The position numbers were made by a program, and so were the translations under genes. Below, one piece after another: positions 13,219-63,720 of a stretch of 64,000 nucleotides of DNA (within the stretch, counting starts at the first letter, position 1; each line of letters begins with the position of its first letter). This stretch comes from Cannabis sativa (lineage: Eukaryota > Streptophyta > Magnoliopsida > Rosales > Cannabaceae), in contig NC_083602.1 of NCBI RefSeq assembly GCF_029168945.1, forward strand, positions 43,399,442-43,463,441. The letters run 5' to 3'. The notes under the pieces are model-generated. The model was not told the origin of the DNA. It did no database searches and saw only the letters and a program-made list of their open reading frames with translations.

Positions 13219-14400
13219 ATGGACGCCAGGCGGACCACCAGGAGTCAGGGCAACTCAGTGGGGTCGAATCAAGGTCAGGGAGCTCAGTTTCCCCACTCGT
13301 TAGGGGGCCGAGGTAGAGGTCCCCGAGGCGGGGCTCGTGGTCGGGGTGATGAGAACCCACCACGGGCTGCCCGAGCTCCCCGGCCGATCGGGGAGCCGGG
13401 TGGGAGTTACGGTTTGCGGAGATGCAAGCCCGGATAGAAGAACAAGACCTCGAGATTCAGAGGTTGAGACAGCAGGGTGCTCCTGCAGTTCCAGTGCCCG
13501 TAGTTCCAGTGGCACCTGCCCCTGCTGCCCAGGCCGAGATTGTGGTGGCGGCCCATAGATTGGAACCATTGTATGAGCGGTTCCGGAAGCAAGCACCTCC
13601 GGTTTTCCTGGGAGGTCCGGACGTGATGAAAGCCGAGCAGTGGCTGACGGTGATCACCAAGATTTTGAACTTCATGGGTGTCACCGGTAACGACAGAGTG
13701 GTGTGCGCCACATTTCAGTTCTAGGAGGACGCTCTGGTATGGTGGGACATGGTGTCTCAGATCCATGACGTCACCACCATGACCTGGGAAAGGTTCCAGG
13801 AACTCTTTAATGCGAAATACTACAACGAGGCGGTCAGAAGCGCCAAGAGGAAAGAGTTCGCTCACTTGACCCAGCGTGAGAATATGAGCGTCACTGAGTA
13901 TACGACTCAGTTTGATCGGTTGGCGAGGTTAGCCTCGGGAATTGTGCCAACCGACTTCAGTAAGAAGGAGAAGTATCTGGACGGGTTGAATGCCAAGATC
14001 AGGCATGATCTGATGATTACCACGGATGACAGCACCAACTATGCTCAGATGGTGGAGAAGGCACTGGGAGTTGAGGGCGCAGTTGGGTGCATGTCAGAAT
14101 CAGCCAGTACTCCGGTGAGTGGCGGAGCTCCTACCCCTCCTGCATCAGGCTATAGCAGGGGGAGTAGTGGTTCGGCCATTGATCAGAGGAAGAGAGCACC
14201 CACTGCTTCCGTGGCTCGAGTCGAACAAAAGGTTCGGGGAACCGAACGAGGGAGTCGTCCTGGTGGTACTGAGACCCGATTCTCCTATCCCGAGTGCCCT
14301 AGCTGCAAGAGGCACCATCGGGGTGATTGCAAAGGTCAGGGATGCTTTCACTGTGGCATGCCCGAACACTTCAAGAGGGACTGTCCCCAGCTCCGATCAG
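13219..14400 (+). pseudogene. gag: gypsy 1 gag, frame-broken
   Basis: The start at 13219 (MDARRTTRSQG) opens an Arg/Gly-rich N-terminus. The frame shifts near 13405 and continues in the 13422 frame. A TAG at 13722-13724 interrupts the conserved capsid region, and the same frame goes on from 13725. The retrotransposon-gag domain spans about 13600-14040. Two Cys-rich fingers follow, numbered from 13749: a CX2CX3HHX3C-like cluster at 183-194 and a CX2CX4HX4C knuckle with Cys199, Cys202, His207 and Cys212. The protein would coat the element RNA in cytoplasmic particles. The same protein is found, decayed differently, in gypsy 2. Confidence 0.9.
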
Positions 14401-14429
14401 AGGCACCGAGAGCTCCAGCGATACCCACT

Positions 14430-16300
14430 CCAGCCAGGGTATTCGCTATCACGCAGGCTGATGCAGATGCCAGCCCATCAGTTGTCACAGGTCAGCTATC
14501 TATTAACAACTCGCTATATTTAGTACTGTTTGATTCTGGGGCTACACATTCTTATGTGGCGGCCAGAGTCTTTAGTAAATTGGGTAGACCCTATGATAGA
14601 TATGAATCAGGGTTTGGAACCCTGTTACCTGGCGGAGAATTGGTTATCTCCAATAGGTGGATTAGGTCTATGCCAATCAGGATAGACGGTAGAGAGTTAA
14701 GTGCTGATCTGATAGAGATGAGTTTAGTCGAATTCGATATTATTTTAGGAATGGATTTCCTATCTAAATATTCGGCGAGCATTGATTGTAAAAGGAAGAT
14801 GGTGATCTTCCAACCGGAAAGTGAAGAACCGTTTGTATTTGTTGGTTCGGTTCAGGGATCTCAGATCCCGGTGATCTCGGCTATGTCAGCGAGAGAATTG
14901 TTGTACGGCGGTTGCTTAGGGTTTCTGGCCGTGGTGGTGGACACCACTCGGCCAGATACCATTCGGCCAGAAGACATCAGGGTGGTTCGGGAATTTTTGG
15001 ATGTTTTTCCCGAAGAACTTCCAGGGTTACCACCTCAGCGGGAGATTGACTTTGTGATTGACTTGGCACCAGGGGTGGAACCGGTTTCCAAAGCCCCGTA
15101 TAGAATGGCTCCAGCTGAACTTAAGGAATTAAAGATTCAGCTCCAAGGGTTGCTTGACATAGGGTTCATTCGGCCCAAGTGTGTCACCCCCTGGGAGCCC
15201 CGGTTTTATTCGTCAAGAAGAAGGATGGATCTATGAGGATGTGCATCGACTACAGGGAGTTGAACAAGCTGACGGTAAAGAATAAATATCCATTACCTAG
15301 GATCGATGACTTGTTCGATCAGCTTCAGGGGAAGACAGTCTTTTCTAAGATTGATCTCCGTTCGGGTTATCATCAGTTGAGAATCCGAGAGGAGGACATT
15401 CCAAAGACGGCCTTCCGCACTAGGTATGGACATTATGAATTTTTGGTTATGTCATTCGGACTAACCAATGCTCCCGCAAAGATTCATGGACACGATGAAT
15501 AGAGTATTCAAGGATTTCCTCGATATCCGTGTGATTGTGTTTATCGACGACATCCTCGTGTACTCTCGATCGGAAAGAGGAGCATGAGTTACATCTTCGG
15601 ATGGTACCGCAACGGCTTCGAGAACATAAGCTCTATGCCAAGTTCAAGAAATGTGAGTTCCGGCTATCTCAAGTGTCCTTCCTAGGGCACATTGTGAGTA
15701 AAGACGGGATCAAGGTGGATCCCGGGAAGATCGAATCCGTCAGGGATTGGCCGAGACCGAAGACAGTGACAGAGATCAGAAGCTTCTTGGGTTTAGCTGG
15801 GTACTACCGTAGGTTCGTTGAAGGGTTCTCTAAAATTTCAATGCCCCTAACTGAGCTTACAAAGAAGAATTAGCGGTTTATCTGGTCAGATAAATGTGAA
15901 GCTAGTTTTCAGGAGCTGAAACAGAGGTTGATTACTGCTCCAGTGCTAGCTTTGCCTTCGGACAAGGAGAAGTTCGTAGTATATTGCGACGCATCCAAAC
16001 AGGGTTTGGGGTGTGTATTGATGCAAGCCGATCGGGTCATCGCCTATGCCTCCCGTCAGTTAAAGGATTATGAACAGCGATACCCGACTCATGATCTAGA
16101 ATTGGCCGCAGTGGTTTTTGCACTGAAGATTTGGCGGCATTACCTTTATGGAGAGAAGTGTGAGATCTATACCGACCATAAAAGTCTCAAGTATTTCTTT
16201 ACTCGAGAAGATTTGAACATGAGACAAAGGCGTTGGTTGGAATTAGTGAAGGATTACGATTGTGAGATCCTCTATCATCCGGAAAAGCCAATGTAGTGGC
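14430..16300 (+). pseudogene. pol: gypsy 1 protease, reverse transcriptase and RNase H, frame-broken
   Basis: The protease active site FDSGATHS is at residues 261-268 of the 13749 frame. RT starts near 15020. The frame changes near 15175, 15480 and 15575, and a TAG ends the frame at 15871-15873. The catalytic FIDD box (the gypsy form of YVDD) is at about 15540-15552. RNase H spans about 15960-16290, with the CDASKQGLG and YTDHKSL motifs, and the frame shifts again near 16290. Together these enzymes would process the polyprotein and copy RNA to DNA. As written, none can be made whole. Confidence 0.92.
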
Positions 16301-17899
16301 CGATGCCCCGAGCGTAAAGGGTCCCGGGCAAGTAGCTAGTATGGTTCAGATCTCACCTCAGCTAGCAGAGGATATGGTTAGATCCAGCATTGAGTTTGTG
16401 ATAGGTCAGCTTCACAACTTAACGCTGCAATCTGACCTGTTGGAAAGAATAAAAGTCGCTCAGATGACAGATCCGGAGTTAGTAAAGATCCGAGATGAGG
16501 TGTTGGCTGGTCAAGCCAAGGACTTTTCAGTGTCAGACAGTGGGATGCTTTTATATAAAGCCAGGGTTTGTGTTCCGAATAGTGTGGAACTTATAAATGA
16601 GATCTTTGAGGAGGCTCATTCTACCCCGTATTCTCTGCATCCCGGCACCACTAAGATGTACCAAGATTTGAAACCGTACTTCTGGTGGAGCGGTATGAAG
16701 AAGAATTTGGTAGAATTCATATCGAGATGCCTCACTTGTCAGCAGATTAAGGCTGAACATCAGAGACCAGCAGGGTTGTTACAGCCTCTAACCCTACCAG
16801 AATGGAAATGGGAGGATATCACGATGGATTTTGTGGTCGGGTTACCTAGGACCACGGGTTTATTTGATTCCATCTGGGTAGTGGTGGATCGATTTACGAA
16901 ATCTGCTAATTTTCTGCCGGTTAGAACAACATTTTCAGTGGATCAGTTGGCAGAACTGTATGTCAGAGAGATAGTAAGACTTCATGGGGTACCGAAGTCT
17001 ATAGTTTCGGACAGGGATCCGAAGTTTACCTCCAAATTTTGGCAAAGTTTGCAACGGGCAATGGGTACGAAGCTGAAATTCAGTACAGCATTCCATCCTC
17101 AGACAGATGGTCAGTCCGAAAGGACAATTCAGATATTGGAGGATATGTTGAGAGCCTGTGTTATGGACTTTGAAGGCTCATGGAATAAGTATCTACCATT
17201 GATAGAATTTTCTTACAACAACAGTTATCAGAGTACGATAGGGATGGCTCCCTATGAACTGTTGTACGGTAGGAAATGTAGATCCCCTATCCATTGGGAT
17301 GAGACAGGGGAGAGGAAATACCTAGGTCCAGAGTCAGTTCAGCGGACCAATGAGGCGATAGAGAAGATAAAAGCTAGAATGCTTGCCTCACAGAGCAGAC
17401 AGAAGAGTTACGCGGTCAGAACGCAGAGATGTTGAGTTCCAAGTAGGGGAACATGTGTTTTTACGGGTATTTCTGATGAAGGGGATTAAACGTTTCGGGA
17501 AAAGAGGCAAGTTATGCCCTAGATTTACAGGACCTTTCGAGATTCTCGAGAAGATAGGTCAAGTGGCATATCGGTTAGCATTGCCTCCAGCCTTATCAGC
17601 AGTTCACAACGTATTCCATGTCTCGATGTTGAGAAAATACGTTTCAGATCCCTCTCATATACTCAGTTATGAGAGCCTTCAACATGTACCCAGACATGAC
17701 TTATGAGGAACAACTAGTGCAGATCCTGGATCGAAAGGATAAAGTCCTTCGGAATAAGACCATAGCATTGGTCAAGGTTCTCTGGAGAAACAGCAAGGTG
17801 GAGGAAGCCACTTGGGAGCTAGAGACAGATATGAGAGCTCAATATCCAGAGTTATTCAGGTTAGATTTCGGGGACGAAATCCTTTTAAGGGGGGGATAG
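16296..17899 (+). pseudogene. pol: gypsy 1 integrase with chromodomain-like C-terminus, frame-broken
   Basis: A 379-codon stretch holds the H2C2 zinc-binding region (HPGTTKMY ... CLTCQQIK). The integrase core follows, with Asp in TMDFVVGLP, Asp in VSDRDPKF and Glu in DGQSERTIQ. The frame shifts near 17405 and near 17690. The last part carries the GPFEILEKIG motif common after gypsy integrases, then a chromodomain-like segment (VLWRNSKVEEATWELE). This is the chromovirus signature and is thought to steer integration toward marked chromatin. The frame ends at 17899, just before the LTR. Confidence 0.92.
17887..17896 (+). other. Polypurine tract of gypsy 1
   Basis: AAGGGGGGGA lies four bases before the 3' LTR and overlaps the last codons of pol. 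Confidence 0.75.
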
Positions 17900-30500: not shown

Positions 30501-31588
30501 CGGGGCGCAGCGGGGCGGGGCCAATTATTACATGATCCAGATCAGGTCGGATTATAACTGGATCAGATCCGACCCGCTCCATTAAGACTCTTAATAATCA
30601 CAATCATTAGTGTGAAATGATTGACAATTCTTGCTCCTAGTGTTAATACGAATGTTAAATTACTTAATCATCATAACCATTAAAACGTTATTAAGATTAT
30701 GATGTCACGTCATTAAAAAATTCAAAATAATTAATAATACATAATAAAATTTATCACCTGATGAAAGCCATTGTTATGAGTGAGGGCAACACCAAGATCA
30801 GCCAAACAAGAATACAGCATGAAATCACTGACTCTCAAAGTGGGATATCTCTTAAGACAGCCATCCAACTTGGAAGCCACTAAGGAAGCCAAAGGATAAC
30901 TCAACGCATAGCCAGCTCCCCCAAAGGCCATCTCGAACGAGAAATCGTAGTTGGACCTGATACACTCAGAACTGGTACCAATATAATGGTACTTAGTATG
31001 ATCATACTTGCTCAAAACTTCTACCAAGTTATCCAATGCCAGAACGGTGTCGTCGTCAGTCATCACATACCATCTAACATTCTCGTCACCTTCTCTAACC
31101 ATCTCAAGAATCGTCCGCACAATCCTAACCTGAGAAGGGTTCGAGGCTCTTTCGTATATTGCCTTGACCTTTTCGTTCACGCGAAATGGTGGGGCCGAAG
31201 ATGGCCAAGGGAGGAACTCGTTTTTGGGTGGTTTGTCTAGAAAAAGATATCCTCGAGTCACGTTGGGTCTCCACCAGGCTTCGGAGTAGTGCCTTTTGTT
31301 CTTCCACGTGTTCATGGAGCCAACTATGCTGAAAACGAGGTGGCTTAGGTTGGTTTTTATCATGGGGTTATTAGGATCAGGAGTACTTGAAATAAGATTA
31401 GTGCTGTTTGTAATTGGTATTGGCCATTTCTGTATGAGGGAGTTGTGTGTAGTATTGTCGAACAAAATTATGTAGAAGAGGAAGATGAGTAGACCTGATA
31501 TGGCTAATGATTTGAATAAGTCTCCAAATAATGACCCCATTTTTGGTTTTTTTGTGGGAGAATCTGTCGCTAGTACTGGAGATGTCAT
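27578..31588 (-). CDS. DUF604 fringe-like glycosyltransferase, two exons
   Basis: Exon 1 (31588-30758, 277 codons) and exon 2 (28123-27578, 182 codons with stop) join in phase 0 at CAG|GT ... GTAG|AT, giving 458 aa. Residues 27-44 form one hydrophobic segment after a short basic N-terminus, as in a type II Golgi membrane protein. The fringe-like domain has YVMTDDDT with Asp168-170, the DxD motif that holds the metal and nucleotide sugar. The FGGAGYALS motif is at 212-220. The DUF604 region continues through exon 2. Family members are predicted beta-1,3-type transferases, but the sugar and acceptor are unknown. Likely TATA sequences lie at about 31657-31672. The 2.6 kb intron carries a MITE. 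Confidence 0.9.
28498..28869. mobile_element. Mutator-type MITE in the glycosyltransferase intron
   Basis: This 372-bp element has long inverted ends of about 100 bp: GGGTAAATACTATTTTAGA at the left and its complement at the right, with a few differences. It is flanked by 9-bp TTAATGTAA and TTAATATAA (one mismatch), the duplication length of Mutator-like transposons. It has no coding capacity. Confidence 0.8.
28870..30757. other. Remainder of the glycosyltransferase intron
   Basis: AT-rich, with a short (AT)n run at 29036-29055. Two GATC-rich blocks lie at about 29590-29730 and 30440-30590. No gene is seen. The second block has GGATCTGATCCGGG and related segments and may be part of a small non-autonomous transposon with the first block. 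Confidence 0.5.
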
Positions 31589-32602
31589 TTTCGTTTCCCT
31601 CTCTGCTGTTCTTTGATGACCCTCTTAACTCAGTACTCACTCGTTAGTTTTTCTAATGTATATAAATATATACATTGGAGTATTTTTCTTTTTTTTTTTT
31701 TTTGGATTAAGTGGAAGAGAAAGTGGGTGAAGAAAGAGAGTTTAGAGGAAAACAAACGTAAAATTCTTTCTGAATTTATAAATTTAACGTTCCCAGGAGA
31801 GGAAGAGAGAATTGAATAATAATTACCATTTTTTAATGGATTGACAGATGTTGAAAAAAAAAAAATCATAGAGAAGGAAAATAAAGCCTCATTAAGCCTT
31901 GAATAATTTAAGATTTTTTATTTCTTCATTTTGAATTGTCATATATGTCCTTTATTTTCACTAGGTAGTTGTTTTTTTTAGAGTATTATTATTATAGTTT
32001 TTGTGGAGTTCAAAAAAATTTATGTCTATTTTCTTTTTTACATATAAGTAATCTTTATTAAGAAAAAAATCTGTTCTCTACAAAATTCCATAAATACACA
32101 GCAATAACATAACTTTTTGATTTGTTGTAAAATAATAATGATAATAATAATAATAATAAAAACTTATTGGTGTGAATTGCATTTTTAGTAAACATTTATA
32201 CATATATTTGAAGGAAATTTGAAAGAAAGAAAACAAGAAGAAGGAAAACTACAGATTCTAAATTTTTATTAGATTGAACTTTCTGAGTATATATATAGAA
32301 AAATCTAACGTGGAAAGTATATTATTTAAAACTCTACTTTCTTTATTTTATTTCGTACACTTTTATATTACACTATTTTGTATTCTTTTCTTATATCATT
32401 TAAAGAATCTATTTTAAAATATTTTAATTATTTAAATAATATAAAAGAATAATAAAATATTTATTAAAAAAGAGAGATTGACATAAAATGATTAAAATAA
32501 TTATACCTCAAATATATTATTCTATCGCTACATGCTACAAAGCAGTATTCTTTTATTTTACTTTTAGAGTATTTTTTACGTTACTTTTTGATTTACCTCG
32601 GC
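31589..32602. other. Upstream region of the glycosyltransferase gene
   Basis: This kilobase is AT-rich and without credible genes. GTATATAAATATATAC at about 31657-31672 reads as TATA-type sequence on both strands. A (T)15 run is at 31691-31704 and short (AAT)n units are near 32138-32158. Confidence 0.5.
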
Positions 32603-32643
32603 TAATGTATGCTTGATATAAGATTCTCACTATTTTTTTTTAG
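32603..32643. repeat. 41-bp direct repeat flanking the Mutator-like element (left)
   Basis: This 41-bp block, starting TAATGTATGCTTGATATAAG and ending in nine T and AG, is identical to 41280-41320. It stops abruptly at both element borders. Confidence 0.9.
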
Positions 32644-32699
32644 GGAAATTTGATAATTTATGCTAAAAAATTAGATAGGGTGTTTAATTATACCCAATT

Positions 32700-33117
32700 A
32701 TTACACATAAAAAAACTATACCTATCTTTTAATTATCTTCCAAAAATACCCCTGTCTTTTCAAACTTCTCTCATTCCCTCTAACTCTATTCTCTCTCTTC
32801 TACATTCTCTCTCTTCATTCCCTCTCCCCACCGACGCTGCAAACAACAACCACACCAGACGACCAAACAACCAAAACCCACTAACCCCAATCGCAGTCGA
32901 CCACCAAACAACCACCAGACGACCACGAACCCACAAACCCACAAACCCACGAACCCACGACGACGACGACGAACCCACGAACCCACGGGCACGAACCGAA
33001 CCCTTGAACCCACGACAACCCAGACGAACCCTCGAACCCACTCCAATCGACCCCATCGACGGACGCCCGAGCGAACAAGGAGACCCTGGGCCGAATCCCA
33101 CGAACCCAGCAATCCAG
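32700..33117 (+). other. CT-rich leader exon of the DUF1985-ULP1 gene
   Basis: A CT-rich run (about 32765-32830) is followed by repeats of CGAACCCA and CGACGA (32930-33040). It ends at a CAG|GTTAG donor at 33117. This is probably an untranslated first exon spliced to 33786. An open frame across it encodes only low-complexity Pro/Thr/Arg text. Confidence 0.45.
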
Positions 33118-33290
33118 GTTAGTTTCCGTGGAATTTTTCTTTGAATTTTCTTCTTTAAAATGCATACATTTGTGGTTGAATCTGGTATTGAATTGAAAGT
33201 TGTTATTTTGTATGTTTTTTGGGGATAATTTGTGCAATAAAACTGTGGGATGAATGTGGGTTTCGAACAATAGCTTTTTCTGGGTTTTTA

Positions 33291-33765
33291 GGTTATTGTG
33301 CGATTTTATGCGATTCTATGTGCGATTTTGTGCGACGTATCTGGAGTCTGTACAGGCATTTATTGTGCGACTTTATGCGATTACTGTGCGATTTGTGTGC
33401 GATTTTTACCTGGATTATAACTGTTTGGTATGTTTAGCGACTTTAGGCGATTACTGTGCGATTTTGTGCGATTGTTACCTGGATTATAACTGTTTGGTAT
33501 GTTTAGCGACTTTAGGTGACATTAGGCGATGTGTGTACGATGTATGACATATTGAGTAGGTTGTGCGATTTTAACAATATTATGCGATTTAGGTGCGATT
33601 TTTGTGCGATTGTAACTGGCAGGATCTTATTTTTTGTTTGTTTTGTACTGTTTTTTAGCGATATTGTGCGATTTATGTGCGATGTTTATGCGATTGTATG
33701 TCACAGTGGCAATCTTTATGCAATTTTTGGGCGATTTTTGTGCGATGTTTATGCGATAAAGTCTA
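33291..33765 (+). repeat. TGCGAT motif cluster 1 (first intron, sense)
   Basis: By hand count about 19 copies of TGCGA lie in 475 bp, mostly within GTGCGATTT or ATGCGATT. AGCGAC and GGCGAT variants lie between them. A segment of about 45 bp starting TTACCTGGATTATAACTG occurs twice (33406 and 33475). All copies are on the + strand. Confidence 0.9.
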
Positions 33766-34747
33766 ATTAATCTTTGTAAATGCAGATGGCTCCAGAACTT
33801 ATTCTCCCAGTGTCAGAGCACTTTCCAGGGCGTATAACATACAGAGGGAACGGATATTTTGCATCAATCAAGGCTAAATTTGAAGCTTTTAACTTGACTC
33901 AGAAGGTGAAGGAGACGCCCTTTGGTGTTTTTTGGAATGCCAGCGATTTGAAATTCAGTGGGGTTATTGTGCATCAACTGTTACTAAGGAAGAAGAAAGT
34001 GAGTGAAGCCAAAAACGATGAAGTGTGGTTTTACGTGGGTAAAACCGAAGCTAGATTTGGGCGCTCTGAGTTCGGTTTGATCATAGGCTTAAAGATGAGC
34101 GGTGGTCCTTCGTCAGAAGAATTGACTGCACAGTGTGATTCTGATCGGATCTTGCGAGACTATCTCAACAACTCAAAAAGGGTGACCTTTAAAACCCTTT
34201 GGCTAGCGTTTGAGGCATGCGATGTGGCTGACGATGTATACAAGTTGGGGTTGTGTGCATTTGTCGAAGGTGTTCTGCTGTCACGGGCCGAGGGTGTGTA
34301 TATCTGGACAGATATGTTAAAGTTGGTAGAAAATGAAGACAAGTTCTTCGAGTATCCTTGGGGTCTTCTTTCTTATCAGAAGTTGTTGTCTTCCACAACT
34401 AAGAATATGCAACAACTTAGGCAAAACTACATGGATAAGAACGATAAGACCAAGAAGAAACACAAGAAGGAGAAAAAGGTTACTCAACCTAAAGCGAAGT
34501 ACAACGTGTACGGATATGCTCCTGCGCTGCAATATTGGGCATTTGAGGCCATGCAAGTTTTGGGGAAGAAGTATGGCCAGTGCAAAGGGACTCGATTCCC
34601 TCGAATGTTGAACTGGAGCACCCCCGACACAGTCACGAAACATGATGTGAAGCAAGCTGATGTGGCTGCACTCTTTGAGAAAAGGGTATGTGAATCTTTC
34701 TCTATTTTAGCGCAATTATTTTTTGCTTTAAGTGTAATCTGTGTTAT

Positions 34748-35180
34748 ATGCGATATTTGATGCGATATTGTGCGATATTTGTGCGATTTACTTTACAGTG
34801 CATTATAAATGTTAAGTGATTAATAAGTTTTTTGGCGACTTTGTGCGATCATTGAGCGATTTTGTGCGATTTTACTTGCACTCCTTATAAATTTTTACTT
34901 GTATTGTTTTATTTATTTGTTTAGCGACTTTATGCGATTCTTGTGCGATTGTTGTGCGATTTGTTAGAAGTCTCATCACTTGTATTGTTTTAATATTTTT
35001 TGGCGACTGTATGCGATGACTGTGCGATTTTGTGCGATTTTTGATGACAGTAGCTAATATACTTTTCTATGTATATGTAATAGATTTTTGGCGATATAGT
35101 GCGATTTTTGTGCGATATGTATGCGATTTTTTTTGTTTTTGCGATTTATTTGCGATTTTTGTGCGACATGTTTGCGATTT
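34748..35180 (+). repeat. TGCGAT motif cluster 2 (second intron, sense)
   Basis: About 19 TGCGA copies lie in 430 bp of the intron 34686-35203, with GGCGAC and AGCGAT variants. All are on the + strand. Spacing is irregular, mostly 8-30 bp. Confidence 0.9.
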
Positions 35181-36214
35181 AACGTGATCTTGTGTTTTTG
35201 CAGATGGTTGTGCTTCAAATCTTGTATCCTCGGAATTGGGAGGTTGATTACTGGAAGGACAATTGTGAGGGTGAGGTCCCCACAGTGGAAATGGGGTTGG
35301 ATGAGGTCGAAGAAACACAAGCCGGGGCGCAAGATTCGACCGCATTCGAGACCCAAGCCCAACGGGTGGCAGAATATGTGGAAAGGTCCAAAATTATTCC
35401 ACCATCCCCACCCAAGGAAACAGCAGACGCCTCCACATCTGCCACTGTGCCCCCAACCCCTGCCACTGTGCCCCCAAGCTCTGCTCCACCCAATGACTCC
35501 GACTACCTCTTGTTGGCTAAGAGATTGGAGAAGGTAGAAGCGCAACAACTTGCGATTCTCACTGCCCAGACTGAGATGAAGGCTGACTTCAAGAGAAGTC
35601 AGAAAGAGATGAAGAATCTTATCATGGATCAAATTGCGACCGTGATAAGTTTGTTACAGAAGCAGCCTTCGGAGCCGACACAACCATCAGGGCCGGCACA
35701 GCAATCAGACCCCACACATCCATCCGACACGGCAGAGCCATTACAGACGGTACATCCATCACCGCCGACATATGATGATGATGATGATGTCTACCCAGAA
35801 GATTGGCAACCTGACGTATGTGACGTTCCTTCTACTCCTGCAAACGCCATTGTCATTTCGCTGGGTGATACAGAATCTCAGGATGTGGAAGAGTTGCAGG
35901 GGCCACCAGATGGGGTGGAGTTCTGTAGGCTTAGGCGAAAGCGGAAGCCGGTTTTCTTGAATGACTACACAGCTGGGAAGAAGAAACAACGACATGGGCC
36001 CGTGGTAGTAGACACACTGAAACCGGCGGACCCCCGGCTGTTAAATTTTTTCCAGAAGTGGATTACTTATGCTAGGGACAATAGCCGTCCTAGGGATGTT
36101 CACACTGGCGAAGCCACTAGATCCTAGTTCGTGAAGTTGATGGTGCTGAACGAATGGCTCGACGATGATGTAAGTTATTTCTTAACAGAATTACTTTATT
36201 GTGTTTTTCATTGT

Positions 36215-36445
36215 TTTGTGCGACTTACATGCGATTTATATGCGATTTATACTCACTTTATGTATAACCTGGTGATGCAACTTTTATGCGATTTATATGC
36301 GATGTGCGTGCGATTATAAACTGATTTATGATTGTTTGCGACTTATGTGCGATTATTGTGCGATTTGTGTGCGATTTTTGTAACAATTTTGGTGATTTCT
36401 TTGTGCGATTTCCTGCGATTTGTTGTGCGACTTTTATGCGATTTC
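36215..36445 (+). repeat. TGCGAT motif cluster 3 (third intron, sense)
   Basis: About 14 TGCGA copies lie in 230 bp of the intron 36170-36473, all on the + strand. Confidence 0.9.
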
Positions 36446-37424
36446 TTTCTTACTGTTTTCTTTTGAAACACAGCAAATTGATGCCATGGCGCACTTATTG
36501 AGGAGAAGACGGACCCTGTACCCAGAAGTCTACACTCGAAAAGGTGTAGTTTTGGACACATCTGCTCCACAGTTCTTTTCCATGTTTTGGAATATGTATG
36601 AGGGTGACAAGAGCAAGATGAAATGGGATGAGGGCGTTATGAGTTACGTGCAGGGGATACCGCACAGATACTTGCCATGTTGGGAGAAGCAGGAGTACAT
36701 ATACTTTGTGTTGCACCTTCCCAAAGAGCGCCATTGGGTGGCAGTTGAGGTGGATATCGAGAACTGGGAGATCATTGTATATGATTCTGATATCGGTGCC
36801 ACCGTTGAGGCAGCCATGGAGTCATATTTGAAGCCTTACGGCGAGCTCTTTGCAAATCTAATTCGAGATAGCGGTTATTTCCAATACAACAATTATGTAC
36901 ATCCGGTGGAGTTGGGCGATCTCAGTCAGCTCCTACCCCTCCATTATAGACGAGCTACCTCGGAGGTTGTACCACAAACGAAGAGTAGGTCAATCTCTTT
37001 TTCTTTTGTATATTTTGAGTAATTTATTTAATTTTGCACTCCATTATGAATTACTTAACTTAATTGTTGCTAATATTTAGTTTTTTTTTAGTGGCAATTG
37101 TGGAATGTATGCCATGGAGCACATTGAGCACTTGCTGCTGGATCGGTCGTTGGAGCATGTGCATGCTGATAACATGCTCACCTTTAGACATAGGTGGTGT
37201 GTGGACCTATTTTACCAGAACTTAACGTGGTAGTTTTTTGTAGGTTTTTGCAATGTTAATCTTGTACACATAAACTCCCCTTTTGTAATTGTATTATAAT
37301 CTCACCAAAATTATATATAACAAGTAAATTTAAAGTTATTTAAATTGTTGCTTGTATCAATTTATTTCTTTTTTAAATTTTTGATAAATACTGTGAAATG
37401 ATGGCTTCTTGAAAAAAAATTTCG

Positions 37425-37790
37425 CTAAGAATCGCATCAAAATCGCACATTCATCGCATAATATCGCCAAAATACACAAACTAACAAATCTAGATTAGTT
37501 CACATCGCAGAAAAATCGCACTATAATCGCACAATGTCGCCAAAAAATACAGAACCAAAGCAAACTCAAAAACAGGATCCTGTCAGTTAATATCGCACAA
37601 AATCGCACCATAATCGCAAAAATATCGCCAAAAAATACAGAACCGAGCAACCAAAAACAAGATCCTGTCAGTTAACATCGCACAAAAATCGCAGGATATC
37701 GCCAAAAAATACAAAACAAACTAAAAACAAGCTCCTGTCAGTTACAAATCGCACAGTAATCGCATAATGTCGCCTAAAAATCGGTAAACA
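37425..37790 (-). repeat. TGCGAT motif cluster 4 (between the convergent genes, minus sense)
   Basis: About 13 TCGCA copies on the + strand, that is TGCGA on the minus strand, lie just downstream of the transposase stop. A unit holding TCGCCAAAAAATACA and GATCCTGTCAGTTA recurs about three times at 75-100 bp spacing (37539, 37626, 37699). The strand is opposite to clusters 1-3. Confidence 0.9.
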
Positions 37791-37880
37791 AACCAAAAAA
37801 GTATTAATCTAGGAGAAAAAAGCACAATATCCAACAACCAGCAATACAACACATATTCATTTAAATATTAGAGAAATGGT

Positions 37881-40402
37881 TCAAACTCGAGCTTTGCATG
37901 TAGCTCTGTTGTGCCCTAAACCGTGACATAGCGAACAATGACGAGGTTCCACTACCACCTGACCACTAGACGGTCTACGCTTCGTCGGTCTTCTACCTGC
38001 ATTGCTCTTCCTAGGCCGACCTACTGGTTTTTTCTCCACTGGTACCCCGATTCTTATGTTCTTGATATGTTCCGGTAGTACCCACTCATCCTCCTCGCCA
38101 ACAATATTAATTGTGGCATCGTAGGTTTTCTTCCACGTTTCTTTAGTGTAATATGGAGAGCAAAGTGTGTACACGCTCACATTCTGACTAACTGCTGCGG
38201 CACATGCATGGGGACAAGGGTTTTTGAGCGTTTGGAAAAGTCCGCAAGTGCATGTTCTCTCCACTAAGTTCACATCACCACCTCTCTCACCTTGAGGACT
38301 CGTACCAACGTTGAACAATTGGGCACCATTACGAAGGACACTCCTGAACATACCATCTTTGTGTTGATCCTTTAAATCATTTTCAAAAGTAGTAGCCAAA
38401 GGAGTAGCGCACTTACTAGCCTTTTCGAGACGAGAAGCAAACCAACTTTGAATTGTGAACCTGATGAAGTCAACCAAAATAGTTACTGGATATTTTCTGA
38501 ATTCTTCTGTCACCTTGTTGAAGCTTTCGGCAGCGTTGCTTGTCATTATGCTGTACCGATCGCCTGGACAATAAGGACGAGCCCACTTTTCAAACCCTAT
38601 TTGCTCGATGTATGTAGCAATGGCAGGGTCCATCTGTTTCAGCACCTCAAAATGCCTATCACATTCCGTCTTGTTCCATGCGTAAGCTGCAAGCCATATT
38701 TGCTTGTTGCATACATCAGTCTTAAACTTGTGATTGACATTCATAGTAATATGCTTGAAGCATGCACAGTGGCATGCTTCTGGGAAAACAACATCAACAG
38801 CATGTTCAATGCTTTGATGCCTATCCGATATGAACATAAGATTTTCAACCTCACCAATGGCTTCCTTCAACTTCCGCAAGAAATACTTCCAAGAGTCATG
38901 ATTCTCACTGTCAACAATTGCAAAGGCTACCGGAAACAATTGGTTGTTTGCATCGTACGCAACAGCAACTAACAGTGTTCCTCCATACTTCGTCTTCAAG
39001 AATGTTCCGTCGATACTAATCACAGGACGACAATACTTAAATCCCTTCCTACAAGCATCGAGTGACCGTAAACGATACTTGAACCGGTTATCCTCGCCGA
39101 CAATGTCGGTAATAGTGCTCGGATTCTTACGTTCCAAAGATGTAGAAGTAACCATATAATTTCGTATAAGATTCTGCTGGAGTACCCCTCTTGTACATAA
39201 CTGCCTTCTCTCTACATCTCCAAGCTTTCTCATAACTCATCTTGATGCCATATTCATCAAACATATCCCTCTGTATGTCTTTTGCTTTGTAGTTAGATCC
39301 ATAAGATGTGTACTTGTTCTTAATAATGTGACCAATGACCCACGGTGCTGCTTGCCGGTGATCAGAATGTCTAGAATCCAAGTTACATGTGTGTTCGTTG
39401 TGAAACACAGTAACCTCAAAAATGTCACAAAGTGCCTTCTTCTTCCCCCTTAATCTCCATTTACAATTTTCATCCTTACAAGTAACGTAAAACACATCAG
39501 TGTCAGACTTACTTACCATCCACTCAAAATTATTTTTCAATGCATACCTACCAACTACATTCTTCAATTCTTCCTTGTTTTTGTACAACTTGCCAAGATA
39601 TATCTCCCCTGAAGGCGTACCACTAAGAGATGTTGTATACACATTATTTTCCTCTATGTCTTCCCTTTTCCACACAAGAGGTTTGAATTTAGTAGAAACT
39701 TCAAATTCAGATACAGGAGCACTATCAGAAGGACCTGGCCGACTGCTACTAGTTCCTGGTGTTTGGCGATTCTCACTACGGGGGGGTCTTCTTTGTCGCT
39801 CTACTTGGTTGCTTGGAGTTAGTTCCATCCTCAGGGGAGGTACATCTGTAGCCACATCATCATCCACACCCAAATCAACCACAGGATCATTGTTGTAAAA
39901 GGGAGCATCGAACTCATCTGAATGATGAAATTCGATACCCACTCTCTCATCATCTACATTAGTGCCAACTTGCTCGTCCAAACCAAACCCCATATCAGTT
40001 TCTGGGACAAAGGTCCCAACAACACTTCTAGGGGTTACATTTCGGGGAGTCTGCTCCAAATTCACATTCTTCTTCACCTTTGTCACAAATAGTCGCAACA
40101 AGTTGTCCACACTCATTTTTGCCTTCATGCTCAAGAACACTCGTAGTTGACTATCTTTCACTAAAACCTCAGGTGGAAACTTAGTGCCTTTCATGTACAT
40201 GTAAAGAACTTCTAACTTCAATTCATACACCAAGGGGTCCACCTCCAACTCTTCATGCAAAACTTCACGCAACTTTTTCAGTGTACACTCAACGTCCAAT
40301 ATCAATGTCTTACTTTTTGAGGAATCAAATACCCAGTTGAAACCCTCCACAGTCCAAACGCCATCATACAAAGACACGGGCACAAATACGGTATGAATCG
40401 TC
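37881..40402 (-). pseudogene. MURA-type MULE transposase with SWIM finger and zinc knuckle, one frameshift
   Basis: The N-terminal part reads from about 40402 down to about 39150. Its acidic/Ser/Pro-rich linker is followed by a WRKY-GCM1-like MULE DNA-binding region (CKDENCKWRLRGKK). The frame shifts near 39150, and a 450-codon frame runs 39233-37881. In it the DDE core shows Asp75 (SIDGTF), Asp137 (ISDRHQS) and Glu236 (NAAESFNK). A SWIM finger CXCX9CXH uses Cys328, Cys330, Cys340 and His342. The end has an AT-hook-like GRPRK (415-419) and a CX2CX4HX4C knuckle (Cys433-Cys446). The protein would cut and move the element. Upstream, the open frame to 40668 runs through motif cluster 5 and is probably intron (acceptor ACGTAG at 40403-40408). 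Confidence 0.88.
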
Positions 40403-40440
40403 CTACGTAAAAATACAAAGAAAAACACAGAAAAAATCAG

Positions 40441-40790
40441 CATACAATATCGCACATACATCGCACAAGGTACTACAGAGGTCGCACAACGTCGCCTAAT
40501 ACAACAATAATATGTTGAAGTATGAAGTCGCACAATAATCGCACAGACAAGGGACAATATCGCATAAAGTCGCACAAGAACACATACATGACAAAATCGC
40601 ATAATGTTGCACAACAAGTCGCACACAAATCGCCTAACATCAAAAATCGCACATAATCGCATAACCATCGTACAATGTCGCCAAAATTAATCATGTCATC
40701 ACTAACCTCAGATTTCTCATGAAATCGCACAAAGAATCGTATAAAGTCGCATAAAATCGCACAAAAATAAAAAAACCCAGAAAACCACAG
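40441..40790 (-). repeat. TGCGAT motif cluster 5 (5' intron of the transposase, minus sense)
   Basis: About 14 copies of TCGCA on the + strand, so TGCGA in the direction of transposase transcription, lie in 350 bp. They fall between a possible first-exon donor at about 40911 (ATGG|GTAAGT on the minus strand) and the acceptor at about 40403. The phase of that donor does not fit the downstream frame by one base. Confidence 0.88.
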
Positions 40791-41022
40791 ACTGTTCGAA
40801 CCACACTCTACCTCTATTTTAAGGACACAAATGACACAAATTACAACTAACAACGTTCAGATCCATACAATATAACAAAAAACAACACTATTTACTAAGA
40901 AAAACACTTACCCATTGCTTTGTTGAGTGTGGTTGACCTTGAGGTTGAAAATGGTGAAGGTGTAGGCTGGCCGAGACGTTCAGTTGGTGGTGGTGGTGGT
41001 GGCAGCCGGCGGCAGTACGCAG

Positions 41023-41026
<4 letters not shown>

Positions 41027-41092
<66 letters not shown>
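41027..41092. repeat. (AG)n microsatellite in the transposase 5' leader
   Basis: Thirty-three AG units without interruption. On the minus strand this is a CT-rich leader, mirroring the CT-rich leader of the other MULE gene. More GA-rich DNA continues to about 41175. Confidence 0.95.
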
Positions 41093-41093
<1 letters not shown>

Positions 41094-41279
41094 AAATGAG
41101 AAAGAGAGAGAAAGTGAAAGAGAGAGAGTGCGAGTAGAGAGAGAGATCAAACGAGAGGGAAAGAGAGAGAAGGGGAGGCTGTTAGATAGGGAGGGCATTT
41201 TGGGGTTCCCATGACAAAATAGGCATATTTACACAATGTGTAATTTTTTGGGTCAAAATAACACCATGTGTTATTTACA

Positions 41280-41320
41280 TAATGTATGCTTGATATAAGA
41301 TTCTCACTATTTTTTTTTAG
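41280..41320. repeat. 41-bp direct repeat flanking the Mutator-like element (right)
   Basis: Identical to 32603-32643, including the nine-T run. Confidence 0.9.
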
Positions 41321-57724: not shown

Positions 57725-59579
57725 TGTTGGGTTTTGTGCCCTAAATAAAACTCATTTCAATTTAATCAAATTTACTTATTAATAAAGATCAGAAATAACA
57801 TTTTATATTGCATGGTTCACATGATTTATTTCATGATTATATATAATGTATGAATTCTATTTAAGTCCAGAACATATGAATTTGTTAAAGATTATAGTGT
57901 TGTTAGCATAGTGGAATATAATCTTAATGATATGTTCGAAAGTTTATTCCCTGATTTGTCAGTTCGCTGGATTTAGACTGACATGATAATCAGCGATAGG
58001 TATTCTTACACCTTGGAAAAGTGTTATGTCCTTTCCAGGGCATTGGCAAAGTTTACCAGTATCGGATGTATAGAGTATACATCGGAAGGGACCGATATTG
58101 AACTTTGATTAGATATATTAAAATTTACCGTAATATCTATTCAATTCAATATCACCCGTTGATCCTAGATCAAATGATCTTAATCCTGATATGTTTAGGT
58201 TCGATCTCAAGAGTACTATACGTGTTCTTCGATTTGTTAGTTAAGCCTACTTTTGGGTCAGGGTGATACGTACATTTTGGGAACATGATAGTATGATTGA
58301 GTGCGAGCGCTAACATAAATATGGAGTCTATAACTTCTATAGGAATTTGGAAGTGAAACGATGATATCCTTCGAGCTTGGCTAAACAGAGATAAATGGTG
58401 GAGATCTCATTTCACTTCGCTGAAATATCATTTATACGGAGCTAAGTGTTTTAAGGATAAAATACATTGAAGGTGTAACGGTAACTTAGTGCCTATTCAA
58501 TGTAGATCATCTACTAGAGGGTCATTGATCACATTAGGACTATAACAATGGATAACTAATGACATATCTATATCGTAGAACATATAGAGCGTTCTATATG
58601 ACTGAGAGTGGAATTCCAAGTTCTACGTGTGGATTCAATAAGGAACTAATAAGTTAGGGAATTTACTTGGTACATTCGGTTCGACTTATTGGAAGCTCGG
58701 AAATATAGGCCCATGGTCCCCATACTAGTTGAGACCATACTGCTTGTAAGACTCAGTTAATTTATTTTAATTAATCAATTATAATTCTAAAGTTAGACTA
58801 TGTCTACTTTATGAATTTTCACTAAGCAAGGGCGAAATTGTAAAGAAAAGAGATTCTATGTTTATTTATTAATTAAGAGACTTTATATGTCTAAATTAAT
58901 AAATATATTAAATGACAATATTATTTAATAATTAATCTTTAGTTATTCAATAATTAGAATTGGCATTTAAATGGCTAAATTGGAAAATTGGCATTTTTGA
59001 GAAAAAGGGGATGAAAAATAACAAAATGGGAAAGTTGCAAAGTGAGGCCCAATTTCCTTATATGGCCGCCCACTAAAAGCTTTTACCATTTTTATTTTTC
59101 CATTATTTTAATGCCAGACAATTATAACCTAAACCTAGAAGGCATTCTATAAATAGAAAGTATTGGCTTCAAGAAACTTATGACTTGCACATTGTTTCTT
59201 TCAGAAAAAGCCTACTCGCCCCTCTCTCTCTTTTCTTCAGATTTTGAAATCCTTGAGTGAATGAGTAGTGCCCACACACATCAAGTGGCATCTCAATCAT
59301 AGTGTGTAAGACTGTAGGAGAATTCAAACAACAAGAAGGAGAATCAGAATCAAAGGAAGGAGAGAAAAAGATTCAGGTTCAGATCTTGATTATGCTCTGC
59401 TACAGAAAGGAATCAAGGGCTAGAGATCTGAACGGAAGGAGTCATTATATTTCGCTGCACCCAATGTAAGGTTTACTAAACTTTATATGTGTTTATTTCA
59501 TTGTTTTAGAATTCATATGAGGATGTTAATCAAACATACTTGGTAGTAAATCTAGATCCTGGTAAAATAATCTCCAACA
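57725..59579 (+). repeat. Right LTR of copia B
   Basis: 1855 bp, beginning TGTTGGGTTTTG and ending TCTCCAACA. It is highly similar to the left LTR. A TATAAATAG box lies at about 59149-59157. Confidence 0.92.
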
Positions 59580-60200
59580 ATGACCTGGGAAGAATTCAAG
59601 GAGTTGTTTAACTCTAAATACTATAATGAAGCTGTCTACAGTGCAAAGCTGAAAGAGTTTACTGAGTTGGTGCAAACTGAGGGGATGTCGGTTACTGAGT
59701 ATACTACAAAGTTTGACTGTCTGGCCAAGCTTGCCGTGGGTATCGTGCCACTTGACTTTAGCAAGAAAGAGAAGTATTTGGCTTGTTTAAATGTGAAGAT
59801 CAGACATGATCTAGTGATCACCACCAATGAAGCAACCACATATGTTGAAATAGTTGAAAAAGCTTTGAGAGCCGAGGGTGCTGTGAAATTCCTTCAGGAG
59901 TCCCGAGTGACTCCGAGTGTTGGTGTAACCCCCACTTTTCCTACTCCTGTTTATGGTAGGGATGGTGGTGACTCCACCACTGATCTATCAAGGAAGGTTA
60001 CCTCGGAATGTGGTGGTTCAGGGCAAAGCAAGCGGTTCCGTGGGAACCAAGGTAGAGGTGGACGTCAAGGTTACTCTAACCCTGAGTGCCCTCGTAGCAA
60101 GAAACATCATCCGGAAGAGTGCAACTGAAAGACATGATTTCTGTGTGGCATGGTGGGGCATTTTAAGAAAGATTTCCCTCAGGCAAAGAAGGAAGAACCG
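59580..60200 (+). pseudogene. gag: gypsy 2 gag, C-terminal part
   Basis: The capsid continues with MTWEEFKELFNSKYYNEAV and remains open to a TGA at about 60126. The CPRSKKHHPEEC finger is present. The zinc knuckle after the stop is damaged: the first Cys region lies around a stop, and the last Cys is replaced by Phe (KKDFPQ). Confidence 0.85.
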
Positions 60201-61404
60201 AAAGCAGAGGCAAAACCTGTTCCTGCTCGAGTGTTTACTATCACCCAAGCTAATGCTGCAGCCAGTCCTTCTGTGGTGACAGGTCAGCTTCCTGTCAACA
60301 ACTCCTTGTATACTCTATTATTTGATTCGGGAGCTACACACTCATATGTGGCTACGTGAATAATTGATCTTTTGGGTAGGCCTTGTGATATTTTAAAAAG
60401 ACGGTTTGGAACCCTACTGCCTAGCTGGGAGTTGATTATCTCTAATTGGCGCATTAGGTCTATGGCGGTTAGGATCGAGGATAGGGAGTTGAGTGCTGAC
60501 CTTATAGAATTGGAATTAACTGAGTTTGACATCATTTCTGTCCAAGTATTCGACAATTATAGATTGTAAACGGAAAATGGTGACTTTTCAGCCAGAAGGT
60601 GAAGATCCATTTGTCTATGTTGGATAAGTTCAGGGGTCTCGAATCAAGATTATTTCTATGCTGAGGGCTACAGATCTACTACACAGTGGATGTGTAGGAT
60701 TTTTAGCAGTAATGATTGACTCCAGCAGACCCGAAAAATTTGGGACTGAGGTAGTCAGAGTGGTAAAAGACTTTCTCGACATGTTTCCCGAGGAGTTACC
60801 GGGATTGCCGCCGCAACGAGAAATTGATTTTGTGATTGATCTTGTACCTGGAGCCGAACCTGTTTCTAAGGCTCCATATAGAATGGCTCCAGCAAAACTC
60901 AAGGAGCTTAAGTTACGGCTTCAGGGGATGCTTGATGTTGGGTTTACTCGACTCAGTGTATCGCCCTGGGGAGCTCCGGTTCTGTTTGTGAAAAAGAAAG
61001 ATGGTTCCCTCAGAATGTGCATTGATTATCGGGAGCTAAACAAGTTGACGATTAAGAACAAGTACCCGTTACCCAGAATCGATGATTTGTTCGATTAGCT
61101 TCAGGGAAAGACAGAGTTTTCGAAGATTGATTTATGATGTGGTTATCATCAACTCAGAATCCGGGAAGAGGACATACCAAAGACTGCTTTTCGAACCAGA
61201 TATGGGCACTATGAGTTTCTGTTAATGTCATTCGAATTGACTAATGCTCTTGCAGCCTTTATGGATCTCATGAATAGGGTATTAAAGGATTTCCTCGATA
61301 ACTGCATTATAGTGTTTATCGATGACATCCTTGTATACTCCCAGTTAGAAGAGGAGCATGAGCATCATCTTTGAATGGTGTTGCAGTGACTAAGGGATCA
61401 CAAG
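60200..61404 (+). pseudogene. pol: gypsy 2 protease and reverse transcriptase
   Basis: The protease motif FDSGATHS is intact at about 60321-60344. One frame change and a short deletion occur near 60540. From 60658 the RT is in a single frame, interrupted by stops at 61096 and 61135 and near 61372 and 61387. The catalytic FIDD box is at about 61317-61329. The stops look like C-to-T or G-to-A changes of Gln, Arg or Trp codons when compared with gypsy 1. Confidence 0.88.
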
Positions 61405-63720
61405 TTGTATGCAAAGTTCAAAAAGTGCGAATTCCGGTTGTCTGAGGTATCTTTTCTGGGACATATTTTCGGAAAGAATGGAATTATGGTTGATCCAAGT
61501 AAGATTGAGTCAGTGAAGAATTGGCCGAGGCCAAAATCAGTGACAGAAGTTCAAAGTTTTGTCGGTTTAGCAGGGTATTACCGACGTTTTGTCGAGGGCT
61601 TTTCTAAAATCTCTATGCCCCTAACCGAGTTGACTAACAAAAATCAGAGATTTGTGTGGTCAGACAAGTGTGAAACAAGTTTTCAGGAGTTGAAGCAACG
61701 TTTGGTAACAGCTCCAGTGTTCGCTTTGCCATCAGATCAAGAGAAATTCGTTGTTTATTGTGATGCATCCAGACAGGGTCTAGGATGTGTTCTGATGCAA
61801 GCTAACAGAGTCATAGCCTATGCCTCTCGTCAATTGAAAGATTATGAGCAGCGCTATCCAACTCATGACCTTGAGCTTGCTGCTGTGGTTTTTGCTCTAA
61901 AGATATGGCAGGATTATCTTTATGGTGAAAAGTGCGAGATTTATACTGATCGTAAGAGTCTAAGGTACTTTTTCACCCAGAAAGATTTAAACATGAGGCA
62001 GAGGAGGTGGCTGGAATTAGTTAAAGACTACGACTGTGAGATTCTGTATCACCCCGGGATGGCCAATGTTGTGGCTGATGCTTTGAGTAGAAGGGGTCTC
62101 GAGCAGGTTTGTAGCACGGTTTTGATAGCCCCTCAACTAGCCTCTAAAATGGTTAGTGCAGTGATTGAGTTTGTAGTTGGGAAATTGCACAACTTGACAC
62201 TTCAATCTGATCTGTTAGAGAGAATCAGAAAAGCTCAACTAGAAGATCCTGAGTTAGTTAAAGTTCGAGATGAAGTAATGGCTGGTCGGCCTAGAGACTT
62301 TTCAGTCTCGAATAATGGAATGTTGTTGTACAAAACTCGAGTTTGTGTTCCTAGCATTGACGAGCTTAAGAAAGAAATACTTGATGAAGCTCATACCACA
62401 CCTTATTCATTGCATCCGGGAACCAAAAAAATGTATCAGGATCGAAAACCCTACTTCTGGTGGTATGGGATGAAAAGAGATGTGGTGGACTACGTGTCCA
62501 AATGCTTAAACTGCCAGCAACTTAAGGCTGAACATCAAAGGCCGACAGGGTTATTACAGCCTTTAGTCCTTCCTGAGTGGAAGTGGGAGGACATTGCAAT
62601 GGACTTTGTAACTGGATTGCCTAGAACCACAGGAATGTATGATTCGGTATGGGTCATAGTGGATAGCTTCACAAAGTTAGCTCATTTCCTGCTAGTGAAA
62701 GTTACATATTCAGTGGATCAGTACGCTGAGCTGTATGTAAAGGAGATAGTTCATCTCCATGGAGCCCCTAAATCTATTGTGCCAGACAGGGATCCAAAGT
62801 TTACATCGAAGTTTTGAGTGAGTCTTCAGAAGGCTATGGGTACCAAGCTAAAGTTTAGTACAACCTTTCACCCTCAGACTGATGGTCAGTCAGAAAGAAC
62901 GATTCAGATTCTGGAAGATTTACTACGAGCCTGTGTCATAGACTTTGAGGGTTCATGGAGTAAGTACTTGCCTCTAATTGAGTTCTCCTATAACAATAGC
63001 TACCAGAATACAATAGGAATGGCTCCCTATGAGATGTTATATGGTAGAAAATGTTGCTCCCCTATTCATTGGGACGAATCTGGAGAAAGGAAGTACTTGG
63101 GTCCAGAATTAGTTCAGAGGACCAATGAAGCTATTGACAAGATCAAGGCTCGGATGCTTGCTTCTCAAAGCAAGACAAAAAGTTATGCTGATCAGAAGCG
63201 CAGAGATGTTACATTTCAGGCATGGGAACATGTTTTCCTACGGGTTTCACCAATGAAGGGTATTAGGCGCTTCGGGAAGAAGGGTAAGTTGAGCCCTAGG
63301 TTCATTGGGCCATTTCAGATACTTGAGAAGGTCGGGCAGGTAGCGTATCGGATAGCCTTACCACCAGCTTTGTCGGCAGTTCATGACGTATTTCATATTT
63401 CTATGTTGAGGAAATACGTGTCAGACCCGACTCATATCTTGAGTTATGAAGCCCTTGAACTGCCATCAAACTTATCCTATGAAGAGAAACCTGTACAAAT
63501 TCTTGATAGGAAAGAAAAGGTTCTTCGGAACAAGACCATTGCCTTGGTTAAGGTGCTCTGGAGGAATAGTAAGGTGGAAGAAGCCACCTGGGAGTTGGAG
63601 TCTAATATGAGGACTCAAAGATCCGCAGCTATTCGTGTTAGATTTCGAGGACGAAATCCTTTTAACGGGGGGATAATTGTAATGACCGCTTTAGTAATTT
63701 GGATTAGTAAAGACAATTAG
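61405..63720 (+). pseudogene. pol: gypsy 2 RNase H, integrase and chromodomain-like end
   Basis: A 470-codon open stretch carries RNase H (CDASRQGLG; the usual His of YTDHKS is Arg here), a conserved [12 protein letters not shown] linker, the H2C2 zinc region and most of the integrase core. One TGA (62815-62817) replaces a Trp codon. The same frame then continues for 300 codons with the integrase Glu (DGQSERTIQ), GPFQILEKVG and the chromodomain-like VLWRNSKVEEATWELE. The frame runs a little into the LTR before its stop. Confidence 0.9.

Follow-up and report, generated by a model that had tools for sequence, protein, structure and literature searches.

We analyzed a 64,000-nucleotide stretch of Cannabis sativa DNA (contig NC_083602.1, positions 43,399,442 to 43,463,441; hereafter the window), which contains a Mutator-like transposon of the VANDAL/VANC type. 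The element carries a plus-strand gene with a DUF1985 domain and an Ulp1-like protease domain and, on the minus strand, a MURA-type transposase gene (Table 1). Five non-coding blocks within it are filled with a short word, TGCGA. As these helically spaced repeats stand beside a gene related to Arabidopsis VANC21, they are probably landing sites of the VANC21-related protein.

Genes and motif arrays of the element

The exon joins proposed for the plus-strand gene match Cannabis sativa protein P0001. DUF1985 and Ulp1 (C48) domains likewise share one gene in P0001, P0004 and P0007; the window copy has a stop codon between the two. The last exon contains the GNCG cysteine motif of the Ulp1 domain. 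The transposase was recognized by PF10551 (MULE; E = 1e-25), DBD_Tnp_Mut (5.1e-11) and SWIM (2.6e-6), and it occupies one continuous frame in protein P0012, unlike the window copy.

Table 1. Features of the element in window coordinates; arrays run from the first to the last TGCGA copy (ORF, open reading frame; UTR, untranslated region).
Feature	Positions	Strand	Details
Mutator-like element	32643..41279	.	Left terminus GGGAAATTTGAT; right terminus atypical
41-bp direct repeat, left copy	32603..32643	+	100% identical to 41280-41320
41-bp direct repeat, right copy	41280..41320	+	100% identical to 32603-32643
Array 1	33299..33756	+	19 TGCGA, 25 GCGA; 5' UTR intron of VANC-like gene, GT..AG 33118/33785
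VANC-like gene, DUF1985 exon (300 aa)	33786..34685	+	Pfam DUF1985 E = 1.4e-19 on enclosing ORF; VANC21 match
Array 2	34749..35177	+	19 TGCGA, 24 GCGA; intron 3' of DUF1985 exon, exon join matches P0001
VANC-like gene, exon 2	35204..36169	+	In-frame TAG 36125-36127; relatives spanning the site read through
Array 3	36219..36441	+	14 TGCGA; intron 5' of Ulp1 exons
VANC-like gene, Ulp1 exon	36474..36988	+	Peptidase_C48 E = 7.3e-8 on enclosing ORF
VANC-like gene, last exon	37092..37233	+	Cysteine motif of Ulp1 domain; comparison with P0001
Array 4	37432..37764	-	13 TGCGA; between 3' ends of both genes, transposase-sense; 88-bp tandem repeat
MURA-type transposase gene	37881..40403	-	DBD_Tnp_Mut, MULE, SWIM; two frames, split near 39130-39236 (overlapping ORFs)
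Array 5	40450..40761	-	14 TGCGA; intron-like 5' region of transposase gene

Of 13 proteins found, ten (P0001-P0008, P0010 and P0133) were combined with the window's DUF1985 exon into a sequence profile. Compared with the PDB, this 11-sequence profile returned VANC21 as the top match (E = 4e-9, residues 96-332), with SENP1 matching the Ulp1 part (2.4e-8). Judged by this profile, the DUF1985-Ulp1 protein is homologous to VANC21 of Arabidopsis. Its DUF1985 part shares 97-99% identity with P0001-P0003 of Cannabis sativa, 87-88% with a second group of Cannabis proteins (P0004-P0006) and 44-45% with proteins of Humulus lupulus. The N-terminal stretch of P0005 resembles a translated array, which is suggestive only. 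Two predicted Humulus lupulus proteins, P0009 and P0132, join the DUF1985 part to PF14223 or a lectin receptor kinase, likely as annotation joins across a transposon.

The five blocks hold 79 copies of TGCGA (19, 19, 14, 13 and 14), all on one strand within a block and none on the other (0/79 antisense). The first-pass annotation had given the same five clusters and counts, and its placement in four introns or intron-like regions (arrays 1-3 and 5) and the intergenic gap (array 4) agrees with ours. Against the 13-19 copies per block, dinucleotide-preserving shuffles (1000 per block) averaged 1.1-2.8 copies, with at most 5-9, and the rate in the rest of the window predicts about 0.6 copies for all five blocks combined. 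When k-mers were counted without a preselected word, TGCGAT, GCGATT and GTGCGA were the top 6-mers. CpG dinucleotides are concentrated in the word: 99 of the 112 in the blocks lie inside GCGA, and the observed/expected ratio reaches 1.6-2.2 in the blocks versus 0.64-0.70 in exons and in the remainder of both the element and the window. The blocks also contain higher-order tandem repeats of 69 bp (96% matches), 79 bp (76%) and 88 bp (85%), so part of the arrays was made by local duplication.

The spacing given by the first-pass annotation, one copy every 15-30 bp, was wrong and overlooked a helical step: a distance of 10-12 bp separates neighboring GCGA cores in 65 of 94 pairs, for which reason we call the spacing helical. 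Under our grouping rule, 25 of 27 core groups comprise three or four GCGA, separated from the next group by 17-58 bp, and the opening core of a group is frequently a variant, AGCGA or GGCGA. When every GCGA distance of 60 bp or less entered a circular test, the peak fell at 9.6 bp (R = 0.58) versus R = 0.47 at 10.5 bp, and phase between groups at 10.5 bp was weak (R = 0.12). We therefore restrict the phasing claim to neighbors inside one group. The phased triplet alone is not specific, as seen when phased TGCGAT triplets were scanned in viral and prokaryotic collections: 240 loci were among the matches listed, and the three densest of these at least 240 loci were short-period satellites. In the Cannabis genome, the pattern TGCGATTGCGAT gave 24 matches against 0 for the reversed control, and an array was present in 0 of the 8 loci returned.

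Word and spacing among relatives

The element's own genome (771 Mb, 18 contigs) contains at least 132 matches to the DUF1985 exon. We examined the DNA of 45: the 30 best-scoring (3.9 kb each, the window's included), 13 picked for diversity (9.9 kb) and two further loci of lineage F3 (3.6 kb). Phased GCGA occurs on the VANC-sense strand in all 30 best-scoring loci, with 24-43 phased cores versus 0-1 antisense. TGCGAT is the word in 21 loci of lineage F1 and 11 of lineage F2. In F3, whose exons are 51-54% identical, all six loci examined use (A/C)GCGACAT instead, seen as CGCGACA or AGCGACAT. Both F4 loci examined (50% identical) carry TGTCGACA, which is palindromic and so counts on both strands. 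The F4 elements L280 (7372-8677) and L281 (7395-8677) have further TCGACA arrays, a second set, on the 5' side of the transposase, mostly in 11-bp steps.

The step recurs with each word. Adjacent cores 10-12 bp apart make up 642 of 902 pairs in F1 (random expectation 77), 246 of 367 in F2 (27), 42 of 77 in F3 (3.9) and 24 of 45 in F4 (3.9), with 13 of 21 and 15 of 22 in the two additional F3 loci, L292 and L293. The non-coding CpG excess is kept as well, at 1.26-1.90 versus 0.66-0.83 in the exon. A tree of 43 exon sequences gave support of 1.0 each for a group of eight (L279-L286), for four F3 loci and for eleven F2 loci, and 0.91 for 22 loci (F1 plus L287). On comparison of these sequences, the word and the VANC protein lineage differ together. 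The first-pass annotation had asked whether related elements keep the word while the text between copies diverges, and had named relatives lacking the word as counter-evidence. Relatives do keep arrays with diverging inter-word text, and no such loss appears inside the family (30/30 loci). More distant lineages have another word or none, which is what would be expected of a VANC system.

Text between the words turns over quickly. When the window's copy is aligned with eight others whose VANC exons are 97-99% identical, 88% of GCGA stay identical but only 54% of other 4-mers do. With seven F2 loci, these values fall to 55% and 6%, no better than the 60% and 7% of a control in which non-homologous blocks were swapped and aligned. 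F1 and F2 thus share word and spacing, not positions, and the inter-word text has been almost wholly replaced. Two stop-filled copies, L288 and L291, hold only 6-7 TGCGAT; in the stretch counted, L288 (64% identical) combines six TGCGAT with four TGCGACA. These low numbers fit decay after the death of the element, with selection and array youth not separated.

Proposed binding by a VANC-type protein

VANC21 of Arabidopsis binds short motifs in the non-coding DNA of VANDAL21, as demonstrated by chromatin immunoprecipitation sequencing and electrophoretic mobility shift assays, and its expression strips methylation (PMC5735166). The same paper describes DUF1985 as a component of VANC proteins and the motifs as dense, same-oriented and evolved by tandem repetition, with a different motif for VANC6. 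The Cannabis element is like VANDAL21 (Hiun) in being a Mutator-like element with degenerate ends and a DUF1985 homologue, and in its short, dense, same-oriented and partly tandem motifs in introns and other non-coding DNA, which vary between related families (PMC5735166). It differs in host, in having two genes found, in the Ulp1 domain of its VANC gene and in its words: TGCGAT, (A/C)GCGACAT and TGTCGACA all contain CpG, while the VANDAL21 word given there is YAGTATTAY. VANC6/VANDAL6 provides a precedent for a second VANC lineage with a second word in one genome, although the VANC6 words in that paper, AGTTGTCC and AGTTGTAC, lack CpG. DUF1985 and Ulp1 also share one MULE gene in Kaonashi/KIU; a 2026 review says that such Ulp1-bearing VANC genes act solely on motifs of their own kind (PMC13317346). 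The lineage here is from Cannabis, and for its words the searchable literature yielded no description.

The element's own VANC-type protein, in our view, likely uses the arrays as clustered binding sites and acts through them against silencing. With each turn of the helix, the DUF1985-Ulp1 protein would recognize one word with its CpG, for three or four successive words, and contact the DNA along one face; within elements of the same lineage, its targets would be introns, intergenic DNA and upstream regions. DNA methylation would be lost at the arrays, allowing the transposase and VANC genes to be expressed. Although the window copy probably no longer makes a full VANC-Ulp1 protein or an intact transposase, its arrays would still make it a target for the VANC of sister copies. 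The VANDAL analogy drawn in the first-pass annotation gains support from the VANC21 profile match and from arrays that are non-coding, dense, in one orientation and partly tandem. That helical grouping is common to three words suggests that spacing is read along with sequence.

Several results weigh against this proposal. Searched alone with phmmer, the DUF1985 exon had VANC21 (9lnj) as its sole PDB match at E up to 1, but a weak one (E = 0.024), and an AlphaFold model of the exon from 11 sequences was not used, given its mean predicted local distance difference test score of 43.5. In VANDAL elements, VANC is accompanied by VANA, the transposase, and by VANB; here the transposase is present, but no VANB-like gene was identified among the window's listed ORFs, which were screened without comparison to a VANB sequence. 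Two loci that encode the exon, L279 and L282 (49-51% identical), showed no clear array. Covariation of word and protein rests on few independent changes, with three words among the 45 matches examined out of at least 132, and we selected 15 of the 45 ourselves. Positional constraint, at first read from the retention of GCGA between F1 and F2, was dropped on account of the swapped blocks.

A more tentative extension concerns the CpG itself. Binding might depend on CG methylation, such that an unmethylated array admits VANC, which in turn keeps the array unmethylated, a built-in switch; we hold this to be possible but doubtful. As part of the same conjecture, word and protein may have changed jointly at least twice in one genome while spacing and CpG stayed. 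The published VANC21 and VANC6 words, having no CpG, could not work as such a switch.

The first-pass annotation had proposed two binders, the DUF1985-Ulp1 protein and the transposase. The former is favored, given that the word differs among VANC lineages, and we regard it as unlikely that the arrays are internal sites for the transposase. Its DBD_Tnp_Mut domain and the position of arrays 1 and 5 towards the two ends of the element would suit that role, but arrays also occupy internal introns and the intergenic space. Moreover, in other-word lineages whose VANC has strongly diverged (48-50% identical to P0001; L280, L281, L283 and L284), the transposase pieces mostly remain closer to P0012 (49-80%). 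Both observations make the transposase the weaker candidate, and arrays of this kind are known to be bound by VANC (PMC5735166).

It is also improbable that the arrays are by-products of repeat expansion, through slippage or unequal exchange, with no bound protein. The first-pass annotation had raised recent local duplication as an objection, and this is partly true: the 69-, 79- and 88-bp tandem repeats are evidence of it. Fast spacer turnover between copies with nearly identical VANC exons also speaks for expansion. Yet the same word and a 10-11 bp step recur in blocks without recognizable spacer homology, in both genes. The CpG excess is limited to the word, and other VANC lineages use other words at the same spacing. 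The scarcity of TGCGAT in L288 and L291 would argue against mere expansion too, though age alone could explain it. We give very little credence to a role of the word in RNA, for instance as an intronic splicing or stability element: one-sided orientation and the four intronic or intron-like blocks would fit, but array 4 lies past the transposase stop codon, the F4 word is palindromic, the helical step points to double-stranded DNA, and VANC21 DNA sites are also in one orientation (PMC5735166).

VANC anti-silencing is already known in kind; what is new is the host, the CpG-containing words and several word-protein pairs in one genome. Literature searches on Cannabis with VANDAL and on VANC with eudicots, limited in reach, returned no description of these arrays or words, and a search on VANC with "helical periodicity" returned unrelated papers only. 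Outside these searches stands an EMBO J 2022 study of VANC evolution in eudicots, whose abstract reportedly names motif sequence, density and helical periodicity. The present data extend the VANC system to Cannabis with matched pairs of protein lineage and word, and because several such pairs coexist in one genome, the rules of DUF1985-DNA recognition become testable by domain swaps between lineages. With CpG in every word, they also raise the question of methylation-sensitive binding, which the VANC21 and VANC6 words cannot pose.

Ends and state of the window copy

The left end was placed by comparison of copies. In 27 of 43 loci, the match starts at or within about 15 bases of position 32643, with unrelated flanks outside; of the other 16, 14 have a match that starts elsewhere or none at all, and two (the window's own and L255) continue into the flank. 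The ends of the window copy show degenerate inverted similarity (score 110, when 200 letter shuffles reached at most 66), to which CT-rich sequence contributes. Degenerate terminal inverted repeats are described for VANDAL elements, and the ends of the window copy conform to this; F3 and F4 copies have clean termini of 10-11 bp. In the four relatives whose two ends could both be seen (L280, L281, L283 and L284), the termini are clean GGGAAATTT...AAATTTCCC, and each copy has an 8-bp duplication.

Target-site duplications of Mutator-like elements are usually 8-11 bp. In the window copy, neither a TCAAATTTCCC-like right terminus nor a short duplication was found, and the 41-bp repeat stands in place of the latter. 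Considering the 8-bp duplications of the four relatives, we read this as damage to the copy and not as counting against the family; the flanking repeat and absent right terminus perhaps reflect repair following aberrant insertion or excision. With the TAG before the Ulp1 domain, the transposase frameshift and the odd right end, the window copy looks defective. The in-frame TAG and split transposase make it probably non-autonomous, unless they are assembly errors.

Over about 240 bp, the first intron of one gene is homologous, in inverted orientation, to that of the other (the start of the array 5 region versus the array 1 intron; score 101, obtained without a shuffle control). Locus L255 (G000:C2:50367387-50368286) is 99.3% identical over 3.9 kb to window positions 32284-36189, left flank included. 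The shared flank implies that the same insertion is present twice on contig C2, some 7 Mb apart, either as a duplicated segment or as an assembly effect. Elsewhere in the window, 1738-3977, 13725-17435, 59571-63720 and 30731-31624 hold further retroelement stretches (RVT_2 and rve domains; integrase, RNase H, protease and gag domains) and, adjoining the left side of the element, part of a DUF604/Fringe-like gene.

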